Assembly (NCBI RefSeq): GCF_007995085.1
Contig: NZ_VOQS01000003.1
Span: 1,922,001-1,986,000, forward strand
DNA from: Paraburkholderia azotifigens
GTDB taxonomy: Bacteria > Pseudomonadota > Gammaproteobacteria > Burkholderiales > Burkholderiaceae
Direction of reading: 5' to 3'
Length of the DNA: 64,000 bases
A program made the translations under genes and the position numbers. This document shows positions 39,894 to 46,262 of the stretch, piece by piece. Every line of letters starts with the position of its first letter. Positions within the stretch are counted from its first letter, which is position 1. Below the pieces are notes generated by a model, which saw only the letters and a list, made by a program, of their open reading frames with translations, searched no databases and had not been told where the DNA came from.

Positions 39894-39908
39894 TGGCATT
39901 GCCTATGC
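39894..39908 (+). promoter_or_regulatory. sigma-54-like promoter candidate
   Basis: TGGCATTGCCTATGC has TGGCA at the -24 position and TGC at -12 with the exact 12-base GG-to-GC spacing of RpoN promoters, but two departures from consensus. It would start transcription about 50 bases before the first gene of the locus. Confidence 0.35.
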
Positions 39909-39971: not shown

Positions 39972-41201
39972 ATGCGCAAAACTCTATTGGCGTCCGCAGC
40001 AGTCGTCGCATTGGGCTGCAGCGGTTACGCAATGGCAAACCCATGCAGTGACAGTGATTCATCCTGCAACCAGAAGGCCTACCACGGGAACAACACAGCA
40101 ACGAACGAGGCGACCTCCACCCAGACCAGCACCACGGGCAATAACGCTAACGAAATCACGACCGGCTCCAAGGTCGCGCAGGATTCGTTCAACACCACCA
40201 AGATCGTCGCGGCAAGCCGTCTGTCCGGCTCGGTGTCGGGCGTGAGCGTCTGGGGCATCGGCAACCATGCCTATAACGACGGCAACGCGAACGGCGGACG
40301 TGGCGGAAACGGTGCGAAGGGCATCGGCGCGAAGGGCGGCAGCGCATTGGCGATCGGCGGCAGCGGCGGCTACGGCGGCGATGGCGGCAAGGCCATTGCT
40401 GGCGACGGCGGCAACTCCAGGGCATCGGGTGGCGACGGCGGCAACGCACGGTCCTATGCCGGCGACGGCGGCAACTCCAGGGCATCGGGCGGCAAGGGCG
40501 TTGGCGTAGGCGGCGACTCGTACGCCAAGGGCGGCAGCGCGGGAGCCGGCTCGGCAGCGGCGGGCGGCAACGCACGTGCGGCAGGCGGCGGCGCAGCCCT
40601 GGCATTGGGCGCTGGCGCAGGCCTCGCGAGCAGCGGCGACGTGCACTCGCATTCGGGCGGCAGCGGTGACGCAAACTCGTCGAGCGGCGCAGCCACGGCG
40701 TCCGGCAACACCGGGTCGGGGACGGCTACCGCTTCGGGCGCGGGCACGGCGACGGGCGGCGCAGCAACGGCAGGCACGGCGACGGCTTCGGGCGGCGCCG
40801 GCACGTCGACGGGCGGCACGGGCACGGGCACGGGCGGCGCAGGCACGTCGACAGCGGGCAACGGCGGCGCAGCCACGGCAACGGCCGGCAACGGCGGCAC
40901 GGCAGGCTCGACGGCGGGCAACGGCGGTAACGCCACAGGCGGTGCAGGCGGCGCAGGCGGTGCAGGTGCGGCCGCGACGGCGACGGCGGCAGCAGGCGGC
41001 AACGGCACGGGCGGCGCAGGCGCAGCAGGTGGCGCAGGCGGCGCGATCGGCGTCGGCACGGGTGACTTCAGCATGGCCAACACCATGACGAGCGTCGCCC
41101 AGTCGGCAGCGGGCATCCTGGTGGCCAACCAGAACAGCGGTATGGCTTCGCTGGTGCAACAAGCCGTCACGGTCCAGGCGAATCTGACCGTCGGCCGCTA
41201 A
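39972..41201 (+). CDS. secreted Gly/Ala-rich repeat protein 1
   Basis: 409 residues with a Sec signal peptide (MRKTLLASAAVVALGCSGYA, then MAN). The mature N-terminus has a Cys pair (NPCSDSDSSCNQK) and an Asn/Thr-rich segment to about 110. Residues 110-365 are almost wholly Gly, Ala, Ser, Thr and Asn in short repeats such as GGDGGNSRASGG and TASGGAGTSTGG. The last 45 residues are conserved with the next gene: SAAGILVANQNSG then MASLVQQAVTVQANLTVGR, an Asn/Gln-rich pattern like amyloid or fibre subunits. Ribosome site AGGAGG. Likely an exported fibre component of the adjacent C39/FapF-like machinery; this is inferred. Confidence 0.8.
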   Translation: MRKTLLASAAVVALGCSGYAMANPCSDSDSSCNQKAYHGNNTATNEATSTQTSTTGNNANEITTGSKVAQDSFNTTKIVAASRLSGSVSGVSVWGIGNHAYNDGNANGGRGGNGAKGIGAKGGSALAIGGSGGYGGDGGKAIAGDGGNSRASGGDGGNARSYAGDGGNSRASGGKGVGVGGDSYAKGGSAGAGSAAAGGNARAAGGGAALALGAGAGLASSGDVHSHSGGSGDANSSSGAATASGNTGSGTATASGAGTATGGAATAGTATASGGAGTSTGGTGTGTGGAGTSTAGNGGAATATAGNGGTAGSTAGNGGNATGGAGGAGGAGAAATATAAAGGNGTGGAGAAGGAGGAIGVGTGDFSMANTMTSVAQSAAGILVANQNSGMASLVQQAVTVQANLTVGR

Positions 41202-41217
41202 TCCTCAGGAGGCTTTC

Positions 41218-42441
41218 ATGCGTAAGACTCTCTTGGCATCGGCCGCCGTCATCGCGCTGGGCTTCAGCGGCTATGCGATGGCCAACCCCTGCTCCAGCGG
41301 CGACTGGTCATGCGACCAGAAGGCGAGTGGCGGCAACAACAACCTGTCGAACACGGCTTCGTCTTCGCAGACGAGCGGCAGGGGCGATAACGCGAACGAA
41401 GTGACCGGCAATTCGAGGGTCACCCAGGATTCGTGGAACAGCACCAAGGCTGTCGCCGTCAGCAAGCTTGACGGCAGCGTGTCCCATGTCCGCGTCACCG
41501 GCATCGGCAATGTCGCGACGAACTACGGCAACGTCAATGGCGGTAAGGGCGGAGACGGCGCCAAAGGCATCGGCGGCAAAGGCGGCAGCGCCGGCGCGGC
41601 GGGTGGCTACGGCGGCGACGGCGGCTATGGCGGCCGGGCCATCGCTGGCGATGGCGGCAACTCGAAGGCATCGGGTGGCGATGGCGGCTACGCGAAGGCG
41701 TCGGGCGGCGACGGCGGCTGGTCGAAGGCGTCGGGCGGCAAAGCCTACGCCGGCGGCGGTGATTCGGGCGCGAAGGGCGGCAGCGCGGGAGCAGGCACGC
41801 TCGCTGCCGGCGGCGACGGCAGTGGCAAGGCAGGTGCACTTGCTGCAGGCGCTGGCCTCGGCATTGGCGCTGCGGACAGCGGCGATCTGTCGGCGCGCTC
41901 GCATCACGGCTCGGCTACAGCCAACTCCGGCGCGGCGTCGGGCACGGGCAGCGGCACGGGCAGTGGCTCGGCTATCGCGACGGCCTCGGGCACGGGCGGC
42001 GTAGGCACGGCAGGCGCGGCCACCGCAACGGGCGGCGCGGCGACCTCCACGGCTGGCAACGCCACCGGCAACGGCGGCGCGGGCACGTCGACGGGCGGCA
42101 ACGGCGGCGCGGCGACCAGCGCGGCAGGCAACGGCGGTGCAGCGACGTCGACAGCCGGCAACGGCGGTGCGGCGACGGGCGGCGCGGGCGCGGCAGGCGG
42201 CGCAGGCGGCGCAGCCACGGCGACGGCGGCAGCCGGCGGCAATGGCACGGGCGGCGCTGGCGGTGCAGGCGGAGCGGGCGGTCGCATTGCGATGACGACG
42301 GGCTCGTTCGACATGTCCAACAGCATGGCGAGCGCGGCGCAGTCGGCAGCCGGCGTGATGGTGCTGAACCAGAACAGCGGCATGGCGTCGTTCGTGCAGC
42401 AGGCTGTCACCGTGCAGGCGAACCTGACTGTCGGCCGCTAA
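41218..42441 (+). CDS. secreted Gly/Ala-rich repeat protein 2
   Basis: 407 residues, a tandem duplicate of the preceding gene 16 bases away, also with AGGAGG. Signal peptide MRKTLLASAAVIALGFSGYA, the same Cys pair (NPCSSGDWSCDQK), an Asn/Ser-rich segment, a Gly/Ala/Thr repeat region (about 110-360) and the shared ending NQNSGMASFVQQAVTVQANL. The ends are strongly conserved while the repeat region differs in order and number, as expected for proteins whose repeats vary by recombination. The two may co-assemble. Confidence 0.8.
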   Translation: MRKTLLASAAVIALGFSGYAMANPCSSGDWSCDQKASGGNNNLSNTASSSQTSGRGDNANEVTGNSRVTQDSWNSTKAVAVSKLDGSVSHVRVTGIGNVATNYGNVNGGKGGDGAKGIGGKGGSAGAAGGYGGDGGYGGRAIAGDGGNSKASGGDGGYAKASGGDGGWSKASGGKAYAGGGDSGAKGGSAGAGTLAAGGDGSGKAGALAAGAGLGIGAADSGDLSARSHHGSATANSGAASGTGSGTGSGSAIATASGTGGVGTAGAATATGGAATSTAGNATGNGGAGTSTGGNGGAATSAAGNGGAATSTAGNGGAATGGAGAAGGAGGAATATAAAGGNGTGGAGGAGGAGGRIAMTTGSFDMSNSMASAAQSAAGVMVLNQNSGMASFVQQAVTVQANLTVGR

Positions 42442-42642
42442 CTGACCTGAAACACAGTTAGCGTCGATAAGTCGTTGTGTGATGTGCCGTGGGGCGTTCG
42501 CGCTCCACGGCTTCTGTTCCATCGCCGGGGCGCACGGGGTAGCCGCGCCGGGCGACGGTCGCACAAGTCTTACTTCGCCGCACGCTGCTGCGCGTGCCGC
42601 ATGGCCGTTGCAGCGCACCCGGCGGAGCACCAGGAGACAACC

Positions 42643-43092
42643 ATGCAGGCGTTCAAACGCATTGCGATGCTGTTACTGCCTGTCGTCATCGGATTGCCTG
42701 GCCTCGCGGCCCATGTCATGGCCGGCGAACTGCGTTCACCCGTGCAGGCGGATACGTCGATCGCTCCCGCTGTCGTTGCATCCGGCACTGCACAGAAGAC
42801 TCAAACGGCTACCGCATCGCCTGCACCGGCGAGTGTCGCCGACGCGACCTTCGGTGTCGCGATGACGGCCGAGCAGCTCGATGCGCATCGCGGCGGCGAA
42901 CAGGTCTTCAACGACATGAACCTGCGCGGCACCGTCGCGAACAACACCGCGCGCGGCGTCGACACCGGGTCGAACATGATCACGGGCGGCTCGTTCTCGA
43001 GTTCGAGCGGTTTGCCCACGGTGATCCAGAACACGGGCGCGAACGTGCTGATCCAGAACGCGACGATCGTCAATGTGCGCTTTGGGGAGTGA
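42643..43092 (+). CDS. small exported protein with mid-protein double-glycine motif
   Basis: 149 residues with a signal peptide (MQAFKRIAMLLLPVVIGLPG, cleavage likely near AAHVMA). A Ser/Thr/Ala/Pro-rich linker leads to MTAEQLDAHRGG (Gly 84-85), which resembles the leader end cut by C39 peptidases (hydrophobic, acidic, hydrophobic, then GG). The following 64 residues contain GLPTVIQNTGANVLIQN and TIVNVRF, with Asn/Gln spacing like fibre subunits. AGGAG precedes the start. The C39 peptidase gene starts three bases after its stop, so the two are likely co-translated; it is a plausible substrate. Confidence 0.75.
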   Translation: MQAFKRIAMLLLPVVIGLPGLAAHVMAGELRSPVQADTSIAPAVVASGTAQKTQTATASPAPASVADATFGVAMTAEQLDAHRGGEQVFNDMNLRGTVANNTARGVDTGSNMITGGSFSSSSGLPTVIQNTGANVLIQNATIVNVRFGE

Positions 43093-43095
43093 GCG

Positions 43096-43785
43096 ATGAA
43101 ACTCCAGAGAGGGGTGTGGCTTCTGGCGTGCGCGCTGACTGCGGCAGGCGCGGCGCGCGCCGATCCCATCACGATCTACGAACCGTCGGGCGCCGGTTAC
43201 GCGATGCACGTGACGAGCCTGAAAGAGGCTCGCTTCAAGCGGACCATCAAGCAGCAGTTCGACTTCAGCTGCGGGTCCGCGGCCGTGGCGACGCTGCTCA
43301 CGTATCAGTACAACTATCCCGTGAACGAGCAGACGGCCTTCCAGGAGATGTACGAGAGCGGCGATCAGGCGAAGATCCGCACCGAGGGCTTTTCGCTGCT
43401 GGATATCAAGCGCTTTCTGGAGCGTCGCGGCTTCATCGCGGACGGTTATGAGCTGCCGCTGCAAAAACTCGTCGAAACGAATACGCCCGCCATCGTGCTG
43501 ATCAGCGAAAGCGGCTATCACCATTTCGTCGTGGTGAAAGGCCTGAAGAACGACCGTGTGCTGATCGGCGATCCCGCGACGGGCACGCGGCCCGTGCCGT
43601 TGAAGAGCTTCGAGGCGAAATGGGAGGACCAGGTTCTCTTTGTCATCCATAACAAACCCGGCGTCGGGGTCTTCAACGATCCCGTCGACTGGCGAGTCGC
43701 GCCACCCGCGCCGCTCTATACGGGCGTCAATCGCGATGGTCTGTTCTTCACCGTGATGCCCAAGCACGGCGCGAGTGATTTCTGA
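43096..43785 (+). CDS. periplasmic C39-type cysteine peptidase (FapD-like)
   Basis: 229 residues: a signal peptide (ACALTAAGAARA) and a stand-alone C39 peptidase domain without the ABC transporter usually fused to it. The active site is complete: Gln 53 and Cys 59 in IKQQFDFSCGSAAVA, His 142/143 in SGYHHFVVVKG and Asp 159 in LIGDPATG. Free-standing exported C39 peptidases of this type are FapD of the Pseudomonas Fap amyloid system. Here it is flanked on both sides by exported proteins bearing double-glycine motifs, suggesting it trims them in the periplasm before or during export. Confidence 0.85.
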   Translation: MKLQRGVWLLACALTAAGAARADPITIYEPSGAGYAMHVTSLKEARFKRTIKQQFDFSCGSAAVATLLTYQYNYPVNEQTAFQEMYESGDQAKIRTEGFSLLDIKRFLERRGFIADGYELPLQKLVETNTPAIVLISESGYHHFVVVKGLKNDRVLIGDPATGTRPVPLKSFEAKWEDQVLFVIHNKPGVGVFNDPVDWRVAPPAPLYTGVNRDGLFFTVMPKHGASDF

Positions 43786-43793
43786 GGGCCATC

Positions 43794-44753
43794 ATGAGAA
43801 CGGAGACCCGAAAAATCGCCGGTATCGCCACGATGCTATGTGGGTCGATGGTGACGTTCGGTGCGCATGCATTCGAGCAGAGCGTGCCGCCCGCGGAAGC
43901 CGCTGTCGCTCCCGATCTCGCCGGAGGGGCAGTCGAGCCGCTGGCGATGCGCGCCGCGGCGCCTGCGAACGAAGCGCCCGATGCCATCACACAGGCTGTC
44001 GTCGATGCGCTGTCGACGCACAAGCCGCGCGCATTCGCCGACGATACCGACGGCCTGCATCCCGTTTCCTATGCAAGGCCGATAGTCGTGCCTTCGAAGG
44101 GCGACGTGAAGCCGGTGGTAGCGGGTGCGGCAGATGAAACGGCACGACCTGCGCCGATAAAAGAAGCACGGGCGTCCGTTGCACAGACGCAAGGCAAAGC
44201 GCCCGTCTCGTATGCCGCACCCATTGCGGTACCCATTGCCGCGCCTCCGGCTGCTCAGGCTGCGCGCAACGACACGCACCCTGGCGCTCGCCACGAAGCC
44301 AAAGCGCAAGTGGATACCGAAGATCCGAACTGGTCGTCGAAAACGACAGTCGCGATCAGCGAAGAAAAACTCGACACGATGCGCGGTGGTTTCGATGTCG
44401 CGAACGGCCTGAAGGTTTCGTTCGGCATTTCGAGGATGGCTGTCGTGAACGGCAATCTCGTCACGCAGACGAGCTTCAACATTCCGGACCTGAGCAACAT
44501 GACGACGCAGCAGGCGCAAGCGCTGGCGGCGGCGAACATGGGGTCGCTGCTGCAGAACGGCGTGGGCAACGTCGCGCAGCAAGGTTCCGTGCAGGGATTG
44601 TCGGGCGCGGTGATCCAGAACACGTTGAGCAACCAGAACATTCAGACACTGACGACCATCAACGCAGCCGTCAATTCGCTGGGCCTCTTCAAGAACATGA
44701 ATCTGGGTTCGACGTTGAACAACGCTTTGCTGAATTCGGTCAGGCCGCGATAA
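43794..44753 (+). CDS. exported protein with mid-protein double-glycine motif
   Basis: 319 residues with a signal peptide (cleavage near AHAFEQ). A long Ala/Pro-rich stretch contains an imperfect internal repeat (PVSYARPIVVP at about 90 and PVSYAAPIAVP at about 137). Then comes ISEEKLDTMRGG (Gly 198-199), matching the MTAEQLDAHRGG of the smaller protein. The 120-residue tail carries GLSGAVIQNTLSNQNIQTL and Asn-rich repeats. It starts 8 bases after the C39 gene. The shared layout (signal, linker, GG motif, VIQNT segment) makes it a second likely substrate of the peptidase. Confidence 0.75.
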   Translation: MRTETRKIAGIATMLCGSMVTFGAHAFEQSVPPAEAAVAPDLAGGAVEPLAMRAAAPANEAPDAITQAVVDALSTHKPRAFADDTDGLHPVSYARPIVVPSKGDVKPVVAGAADETARPAPIKEARASVAQTQGKAPVSYAAPIAVPIAAPPAAQAARNDTHPGARHEAKAQVDTEDPNWSSKTTVAISEEKLDTMRGGFDVANGLKVSFGISRMAVVNGNLVTQTSFNIPDLSNMTTQQAQALAAANMGSLLQNGVGNVAQQGSVQGLSGAVIQNTLSNQNIQTLTTINAAVNSLGLFKNMNLGSTLNNALLNSVRPR

Positions 44754-44769
44754 AAGCTTCATTGAAAAA

Positions 44770-44798
44770 GGCTCGCGACGCGTGACGCGTCGCGAGCC
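44770..44798. terminator. bidirectional terminator between convergent Fap-like genes
   Basis: A perfect 13-bp stem (44770-44782 and 44786-44798) with a three-base loop TGA. An A-run precedes it on the plus strand, so read from the minus strand it ends in TTTTTC and should stop transcription of the FapF-like gene; it probably serves the plus-strand operon as well. Confidence 0.8.
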
Positions 44799-44825
44799 TC
44801 TCTATATGCGTCAGAAGCAGGCCGT

Positions 44826-46262
44826 TCAGAATTGGATCGGCATGCGGAACGTCAGCGTCAGATCCGGCGTGTCGCGCGTGAGGCCGGCGCCGAGCGAGAA
44901 ATTCAGCGTCGTCTTCGGCGTGATCCGGTACGAGTAGCCGACCAGCAGCGTGCCCAGTATCACGCGCACCGAGCCCGGCACGCTCTGGCCGTTCTGCTTG
45001 GTCGGCAGCACGATGCTCTGGTCGTAGCCGATGCTGAACGAAGCCTTTTCGTTCAGCGCGAGACCCATGCCGATGTTGAAGCCGTAGATATCGCCGGGCT
45101 GGATGTGGCCGACGGGATCCGTTTCGCCATTGAGGATGTGCAGGCTCAGATCGCTGCGGCCAAAGCTGTGCAGATAGCTGAAGTTTCCGAAGAACACGAC
45201 AGGGTCGCTCGGGAACAGCCACGTGAGGCCTGGCTGGATCGCGTAGAAGCCCGTGCCCGTCGGCTGTTCGAGCGGCAGGCCGGTGCCCGTCGTGTTGCCG
45301 ATACAGCGCGTCACGCAATCGGTAACCACGTCGAACGGACTCTTGCCCGTCGCCGTCTTGAAGCGCAGCCAGCCGATGTAGTAGAACTTGTCCGGACCGC
45401 CTTCGTTCAACTGGTAACGCAGCGTCATTTCGACGTCGCCGATGCCGTGGCCGCTGCTGTTGAAGACGTTGTCCTGCGCGGAGCCCGTGAAGATCTCGCG
45501 GCTCACGGTGTCGTTGGTCGAATAGACGTACGGCACGCGCACTTCGACTTCCATCCGGTTCGTGATGCCGTAACGCGCGGCGACACCGCCCGTGAGCACG
45601 TTCGACTTGATCTCGCGCACGTCGATCAAACCGATCAGCAATGCAGGAATGATCGTGTAGCCGACCAGTGCGACGCGATCCGACGACGAATAGCCGAACT
45701 GGAACGACGGTTCCAGCACGAACTTGTTGCGCGGCGTGAGCACGCCGGGCTGATCGAAGATCGGTGCGACCGCGGGCGGCGCGGTATCGGGGATGGGCGC
45801 CTGACCGACCGGCTGCGAAGGCTGGCCCTGCTGATCACCGCCGTTCTGCGCGGTGCTGATCGCGGGTGCGGGTGCGGTGCCCGCTGCGGTTCCCGCTGTC
45901 GCGCCGGCTGTTGCGGCTGCGCCGGCATCGGGTGCTGCGCCCGCTCTCTCGCCCGCACCGGCGTTCTGTGCGATACCCGCAGCGGGCGCCGCGCCCGCGC
46001 CGGGCTGACCCGCTCCGCGAGTCGCGTCGAGCATGCGTGAATCGAGTGCTTTGCTTAATTGCTGGAATTGCGCTTCTTCTTCGGCGAGTTTGCGTTTGAG
46101 TGAGTCGAGTTCCTTGATCCGGTTGTTCAGTTCCTGGCGAAGGGTTGCGATATTTTCCTGTGCGGTTTGATCCTGGAGCGATTGCGCATGGGCTTCAGCG
46201 TAAAAAAGAAGCACCGTTGCGTAACTGATCATCCGCACATGTCGAAATGGCTCGCGCTTCAT
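44826..46262 (-). CDS. outer-membrane barrel exporter (FapF-like)
   Basis: 478 residues: a signal peptide (cleaved near AEAHA), a coiled coil (about 30-75, TLRQELNNRIKELDSLKRKL), an Ala/Gly/Pro linker (about 80-165) and a barrel domain starting PRNKFVLEPSFQFGYSSSDR, with ARYGITNRMEVEVRVPYVYS, ending in F. This layout is that of FapF, the trimeric channel that exports Fap amyloid subunits. The ATG 46262 follows GGAGAA at a proper distance. Unlike the Pseudomonas fap operon, the gene is convergent to the substrate/peptidase operon. It is probably the export pore of this locus. Confidence 0.8.
   Translation of the reverse strand: MKREPFRHVRMISYATVLLFYAEAHAQSLQDQTAQENIATLRQELNNRIKELDSLKRKLAEEEAQFQQLSKALDSRMLDATRGAGQPGAGAAPAAGIAQNAGAGERAGAAPDAGAAATAGATAGTAAGTAPAPAISTAQNGGDQQGQPSQPVGQAPIPDTAPPAVAPIFDQPGVLTPRNKFVLEPSFQFGYSSSDRVALVGYTIIPALLIGLIDVREIKSNVLTGGVAARYGITNRMEVEVRVPYVYSTNDTVSREIFTGSAQDNVFNSSGHGIGDVEMTLRYQLNEGGPDKFYYIGWLRFKTATGKSPFDVVTDCVTRCIGNTTGTGLPLEQPTGTGFYAIQPGLTWLFPSDPVVFFGNFSYLHSFGRSDLSLHILNGETDPVGHIQPGDIYGFNIGMGLALNEKASFSIGYDQSIVLPTKQNGQSVPGSVRVILGTLLVGYSYRITPKTTLNFSLGAGLTRDTPDLTLTFRMPIQF

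Follow-up and report, generated by a model that had tools for sequence, protein, structure and literature searches.

A locus at positions 39972-46262 of a 64,000-nucleotide stretch of the Paraburkholderia azotifigens genome (contig NZ_VOQS01000003.1, positions 1,922,001 to 1,986,000; the whole stretch is called the window here) raises the question of which system is served by a stand-alone C39 peptidase and an outer-membrane barrel protein, both of the kind known from the functional amyloid (Fap) system of Pseudomonas, when they are encoded beside Gly/Ala-rich proteins. The results described below suggest that the locus is probably a sigma-54-controlled FapF-type export system for surface proteins, a sister branch of Fap with cargo of its own. 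The gene set was located in full at this place and consists of six open frames, and a Sec-type signal peptide could be read by eye at the start of all six proteins.

39894..39908, forward strand: predicted sigma-54 (-24/-12) promoter TGGCATTGCCTATGC, 78 nucleotides upstream of cargo 1
39972..41201, forward strand: cargo 1, 409 residues, with a signal peptide, an Asn/Thr/Ser-rich start, a Gly/Ala-rich region and a conserved C-terminal motif
41218..42441, forward strand: cargo 2, 407 residues, a tandem paralogue 68% identical to cargo 1
42486..42511, forward strand: stem-loop with an 11-bp stem and a UUCG loop, between cargo 2 and P3
42643..43092, forward strand: P3, 149 residues, with a signal peptide, a linker, a leader ending in LDAHRGG and a 64-residue cargo-like part
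43096..43785, forward strand: D, 229 residues, a FapD-like stand-alone C39 peptidase with a signal peptide (Gln53, Cys59, His143, Asp159)
43794..44753, forward strand: E, 319 residues, a FapE homologue with a long linker, a leader ending in LDTMRGG and a 120-residue Asn/Gln-rich end
44826..46262, reverse strand: F, 478 residues from its ATG, a FapF-like outer-membrane barrel with an N-terminal coiled coil and linker, on its own transcript

Pfam families were matched above their cut-offs by D alone (Peptidase_C39 and C70), and neither the cargo proteins nor P3 and E gave a meaningful Pfam or NCBIfam match. An earlier note on this DNA had described two tandem Gly/Ala-rich cargo proteins of about 400 residues with NQNSG...QQAVTVQANL ends, and both ends are exact. 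It had also listed two linker proteins with double-glycine sites; the sites are there, but the proteins are better described as a small cargo-like protein (P3) and a FapE homologue (E), so the locus has more in common with Fap than that note assumed.

Conservation of the gene set

D was used as the query of a scan for relatives, and the best 80 of 162 were kept (61 from Burkholderiaceae, 16 from Rhodanobacteraceae, 2 from Oxalobacteraceae and 1 from Lysobacteraceae), which with the window makes 81 loci. P3, D, E and F occur together in 81/81 of these loci, a figure into which the conservation of D is partly built since the loci were selected via D, and the cargo C-terminus is present in 77/81. 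Three of the four cargo-less loci (L007, L009 and L059) lie near a contig edge and the fourth (L080) has one long frame.

P3 was also sought independently of D and F in 200 genomes of Burkholderiaceae, the family to which the window belongs. Matches to the FapF model in these genomes fall into two bands, one of 331-392 bits (65 genomes) and one of 132-166 bits (52 places), with one 140-bit fragment and one 20-bit match set aside. P3 is present in 50 of the genomes, at least three of which (G000, G255 and G328) had supplied rows to the P3 alignment, and all 50 P3 genes lie 486-642 bases from a low-band D and 2.1-3.3 kb from a low-band F, measured centre to centre. Low-band F genes without P3 number 2 of 52, each lying less than 2 kb from the start of a contig. 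Both systems are found in 22 of the 200 genomes, while 28 have P3 but no match in the canonical band. Because the set recurs in 81/81 loci and around 50/50 P3 genes in a sample that was not chosen via D or F, it is beyond chance, and the gene-neighbourhood survey that the earlier note had suggested thus bears out a conserved linkage.

Among 398 genomes of the phylum the P3 model matched 16. The 14 matches with E-values below 1e-6 coincide in position with F and C39 matches (12 of these genomes had supplied alignment rows), and the two weak ones (G148 and G333) have neither. Of the distant loci L136-L149, 12/14 gave model matches for all of P3, D, E and F; the E match is missing in L140 and the P3 match in L144, with similar frames present by eye. 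L150 has F only, and L149 comes from another class of the phylum. The cargo of these distant loci is of other low-complexity types (GGGNDGN, DNSDNS or Gly-rich). A search for further partners in the flanks gave, as the 14 largest shared clusters, nine dominated by Cupriavidus and five centred on Dyella (Rhodanobacteraceae, one also with Ralstonia); the top cluster covers 38 loci, 30 of them from Cupriavidus, and includes the window. No description of the gene cluster was recognised among the matches listed in the open-licence PMC literature, and the conserved cluster is apparently undescribed so far.

A tandem arrangement was seen in L143 (G138:C11), where the cargo-P3-D-E block occurs twice and the two copies of P3 and of D are identical in the printed frames.

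Peptidase D and barrel protein F are homologues of FapD and FapF

D matched the NCBIfam model of FapD with an E-value of 4.7e-40 and 137 bits, which is below the 330-bit NCBI cut-off and is read as homology, not orthology; the genome's own canonical FapD, with 210 bits, is likewise under this cut-off. The match to FilB was weaker (E-value 5.6e-33, 114 bits of a 475-bit cut-off), and that to the PCAT double-glycine protease 6mpz had an E-value of 1.4e-8. The Gln, Cys, His and Asp residues are kept in 81/81 D rows. In an unrooted tree made from 61 peptidase rows with a quick method and carrying long-branch warnings that include Fil (six motif-less rows, five of them Fap, were not used), 16 Fap rows lie on one side of a branch that excludes the window, with a support of 99 in the Shimodaira-Hasegawa-like approximate likelihood-ratio test. 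Four Fil-like rows likewise sit together on a separate, long branch (support 99); a further group apart is formed by the window type with its distant kin (branch support 86). A second C39-like frame of 285 residues was noticed in one genome (G255:C130:8761-9162), on another contig than that genome's window-type locus.

F matched FapF with an E-value of 9.9e-39 and 133 bits of the 700 required, where the genome's own FapF reaches 358, and here too the match is taken as homology and not orthology; FilC gave 1.9e-13 and 50 bits of 630. Sequence matches to the FapF crystal chains in the PDB have E-values of 2e-27 to 3e-26, the profile alignment of F with FapF spans 437 columns including the coiled coil, and the PTG motif is found in 77/81 F sequences. 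Family models and profile comparisons thus agree with the earlier assignment of the two proteins as a FapD-like periplasmic peptidase and a FapF-like coiled-coil barrel, as do the PDB matches for the latter. The convergent orientation of the exporter gene, which had been singled out as well, is real in the window but does not define the system: F lies on the same strand as the rest of the locus in 51/81 loci and on the opposite one in 30/81, the latter from Burkholderia, Paraburkholderia, Trinickia, Ralstonia and a few more, and is a lineage-level variation.

The same genome carries, on another contig (L006), a canonical fap operon in which FapA to FapF were recognised below the curated cut-offs and which is flanked by two sigma-54 activator genes. 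Because this operon is separate, the locus in the window is a second, different system.

A double-glycine leader shared by P3 and E

Substrate-like leaders ending in a double glycine stand beside the peptidase gene in all loci, with Leu at position -5 and both glycines present in 81/81 rows of P3 and 81/81 rows of E. In the window the double glycine ends at nucleotide 42897 in P3 and at nucleotide 44390 in E. The preceding residue is Arg in 81/81 E sequences and in 67/81 P3 sequences, the other P3 rows having Ser, Thr or Cys. When the two leaders were compared as profiles, the score was 30.9, against a maximum of 12.6 after permutation (0/100 permutations reached it). An AlphaFold model of P3 places a helix at residues 76-82, just before the glycines, with a predicted local distance difference test (pLDDT) value of 83 for the block; at an overall pLDDT of 56 this leader helix is the usable part of the model.

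The kinship of E with FapE is remote and profile-based, as E did not match the FapE family model itself. Over the leader and the 45 residues that follow it the profile score is 24.1, where 100 column permutations gave a maximum of 15.8 (0/100), and the E motif [V]SxxxLDxxRGGFDxxxGLxVSFGI aligns with ELxDxELxxLRGRYxxxxxxISFGI of canonical FapE. The leader of E ends in RGG, whereas that of canonical FapE ends in RG[RK] in 18/21 loci: 15 of 17 in the main count, the remaining two, both of the window's genus, having TGK, and three of the four loci outside that count, the fourth having HGK.

The part of P3 that follows the leader resembles the cargo C-terminus (score 27.0, permuted maximum 18.4, 0/100) and also E (27.9, permuted maximum 17.0). 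Mature E, in turn, showed no signal in profile comparison with the Fap repeat or with the cargo C-terminus. P3 has no FapA model match, and its comparison with the FapA profile gave a probability of 18%. Among the matches listed (best 120 of 641), P3 relatives are named hypothetical, uncharacterised or conserved exported hypothetical proteins, with one exception, 'LysM repeat protein'. By its sequence, P3 looks like a miniature cargo subunit that carries a cleavable leader. FapE has already been suspected to be the FapD target; the present locus suggests where exactly the cut would fall and adds P3 as a second candidate substrate.

Leaders of related form were seen elsewhere. The distant loci L140 and L144, which have Gly-rich cargo and a D that groups with the window type, encode a small protein with a leader ending in LRGR as in canonical FapE. 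In the canonical fap operon of the window's genome, an extra small secreted protein upstream of fapA (L006:2893-3441) has a leader ending in RQRGG and an LWDE motif; it has a homologue in L135 (RQRGG), and L124 and L129 contain frames with a similar leader and LLWDE or ILWDE. This protein is possibly the product of an unnamed extra fap gene and a further C39 substrate candidate.

Cargo proteins

Past residue 25 the two cargo proteins contain 28-29% Gly and 20-21% Ala, and their alignment shows a conserved C-terminus, GxFxMSN..AAGIxVxxQNSGxxSLVQQxVxVQANL, with no C39-type leader seen. Two cargo genes are present in 8 of the 81 loci. The Fap repeat, modelled from 21 canonical loci, was detected at E < 0.01 in 0/85 cargo and 0/81 P3 sequences; 1/82 shuffled F sequences passed the same threshold. 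A claim on the cargo fold was dropped, as AlphaFold2 with 24 sequences gave a pLDDT of 37 and no secondary structure.

The earlier proposal that this system is distinct from Fap is therefore supported by the separate canonical operon, by the lack of detected Fap repeats and by a peptidase that branches outside Fap.

Promoter and transcript

The site TGGCA[CT]N5[TA]TGC was found 75-132 nucleotides before the first cargo gene in 60/69 loci with enough upstream sequence, where 200 mononucleotide shuffles gave a mean of 0.1 and a maximum of 1. A relaxed form is present in 68/69 loci (shuffles: mean 0.4, maximum 2). No such site was found before F, either in the 30 opposite-strand or in the 51 same-strand loci. 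For P. fluorescens PF07, an RpoN promoter of fapA-E with its start mapped by rapid amplification of cDNA ends (5'-RACE) and the activator BrfA are reported, and fapF is described there as not induced together with fapA-E (PMC9207406). In Cupriavidus, a palindrome TGTCAC-N6-GTGACA occurs upstream of the sigma-54 site in 25/27 loci and is a possible activator site; it was not seen in the window.

Structure with a z score below -2 was found in the 110 nucleotides after the last cargo gene in 57/77 loci, compared with 3/77 in a stretch of the D gene taken as a control, both scored with mononucleotide shuffles. The window's own 110 nucleotides have a z score of only -0.1, though the 11-bp hairpin is clear. 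This hairpin between cargo 2 and P3 is a possible transcript-level break that would keep cargo in excess.

Proposed mechanism and alternative explanations

All products would reach the periplasm by Sec, where D would remove the common leader of P3 and E by cutting behind its double glycine. E, as proposed for FapE, may help to open or license F, a predicted trimeric barrel with a periplasmic coiled coil, and cutting of P3 and E would lift the block on F. The low-complexity cargo would then traverse F unfolded and, with processed P3, with which it shares the C-terminal QNSG module, might join into a fibre or matrix outside the cell, in which P3 would be a minor starter or anchor subunit. Export and assembly would be under RpoN control. 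The gene set, the relationships of D, E and F, the leader, the module common to P3 and cargo and the promoter can be seen in the sequence, whereas we infer the cleavage, the order of events, export, assembly and a role in biofilm. The proposed step from D to E mirrors a published model in which FapD acts on FapE and FapE helps to start export via FapF (PMC5557850, PMC12822426). In a bolder version, to which we give slightly less than an even chance, the locus is a third FapF-type branch in which the C39 peptidase licenses export by cutting the double-glycine leader of a FapE homologue and of a cargo-like starter and so releases a Gly/Ala-rich, possibly non-amyloid fibre, RG[RK] being the FapD site in FapE.

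Several observations weigh against the proposed system. The linker of F also contains GG and could itself be a substrate, as suggested for FapF. The leader of P3 is only weakly similar to that of FapE (1/100 permutations scores higher), and the P3 site is GR in some distant relatives (L138, L143 and L145). P3 is borderline in its likeness to the Fap repeat (17.4 versus a permuted maximum of 17.3), and the cargo C-terminus shows none in profile comparison. Cargo, P3 and E have no family model or usable structure (pLDDT 37 for cargo and 56 for P3); the Gly-rich cargo does not resemble FapC and is not necessarily amyloid, and its exit from the cell and its polymerisation are hypothetical. None of the genome's 28 places with a sigma-54 activator gene lies in the window. 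By mass spectrometry, FapE peptides are reported missing over the first ~70 residues (PMC5557850); this gap extends past the RG[RK] site and therefore neither proves nor excludes a cut there.

The locus might instead be a diverged Fap operon, with cargo 1 and 2 as FapB and FapC with drifted repeats, P3 as FapA and an ordinary cross-beta amyloid as the product. D, E and F each have a counterpart in Fap, FapC is described as strongly variable, separation of fapF as a common deviation and loss of fapA as frequent (PMC3792158), and the weak likeness of P3 to the Fap repeat was reached by 0/100 permutations, at a margin of 0.1. We nevertheless consider this origin unlikely, given the canonical operon elsewhere in the same genome and the 22/200 family genomes that hold both, the Fap-repeat model with 0/81 P3 and 0/85 cargo at E < 0.01, the two bands of FapF scores (331-392 versus 132-166 bits), the 16 Fap peptidases on the side of their branch without the window (support 99) and the 18% probability for P3 as FapA.

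Slightly less probable still is a system in which D and F process and release small products with double-glycine leaders, so that P3 (64 residues) and E (about 120 residues) would be exported and the Gly-rich proteins would be merely co-regulated. This would fit the C39 leader on P3 and E, with none seen in the cargo alignment, and the usual role of C39 domains in maturing exported bacteriocin precursors (PMC5557850); it fits poorly with the C-terminal module common to P3 and cargo, with the position of cargo before P3 in 77/81 loci and with the kinship of E to FapE, which is described as a component found in Fap fibres (PMC6173800). That F is a COG4313-type uptake channel for hydrophobic compounds with unrelated neighbours we regard as highly improbable. 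FapF itself is said to resemble these channels and to share the PTG motif (PMC6173800), which 77/81 F sequences contain, but among NCBIfam models F matches FapF best (COG4313 models lay outside the comparison), the F-FapF alignment over 437 columns includes the coiled coil, and F recurs together with D, E and P3.

The sister-branch reading would matter for Fap itself. The target of FapD is described as unclear in a 2017 paper and as undetermined in one from 2018, FapE being the favoured candidate (PMC5557850, PMC6173800). Here a FapD-type peptidase is encoded next to two proteins whose double-glycine leader is invariant, and one of the two, a FapE homologue, aligns with FapE at the leader; the cleavage site and the substrates thereby become testable in vitro. 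A 2013 survey counted 96% of FapD and 69% of FapF hits as false (PMC3792158); some of these now gain an identity as members of a defined system, present in 50/200 sampled Burkholderiaceae genomes, which has predicted RpoN control as in Fap together with a putative new class of surface protein.

Relation to Fap, Fil and PCAT systems

The likeness to Fap lies in the FapD-like C39 peptidase with a signal peptide, the FapF-like barrel with a coiled coil, the FapE-like helper with its leader at the same place, the sigma-54 promoter (which, for fap, has been mapped in P. fluorescens PF07) and the low-complexity proteins encoded before D. In contrast to Fap, the locus contains P3, no match to FapA was obtained and FapB/FapC repeats were not detected, its cargo is Gly/Ala-rich with one conserved C-terminal module, and D and F form a separate group. 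We suggest that the locus works like Fap but should not be filed as Fap: D, E and F are homologues, and the repeats, FapA and the grouping do not agree.

PCAT bacteriocin-type exporters, in which a C39 domain is fused to an ABC transporter, share with the locus this domain, its catalytic residues and the double-glycine leader. In the locus, however, D is secreted as an enzyme in its own right, with no ABC transporter, and its substrates would arrive via Sec.

The putative Fil pilus system, after which the NCBIfam models FilB and FilC are named, also combines a C39 peptidase (FilB) with a FapF-type barrel (FilC); in Acinetobacter Tol 5, FilA is described as the subunit of the Fil pilus (PMC11784438). 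The window, at 114 of 475 bits for FilB and 50 of 630 bits for FilC and on a different peptidase branch, is not assigned to Fil. FilB-like and FilC-like genes stand side by side in four Fil-like loci (L151, L152, L154 and L155; 283-290 bits on FilB, cut-off 475), three of which (L151, L154 and L155) continue, by eye, with a FadL-like protein that was not seen in the window. The pair in L155 has as its neighbour a 145-residue protein with a leader-like start, LKALDDSALADVTGQ, which may be a C39 substrate.

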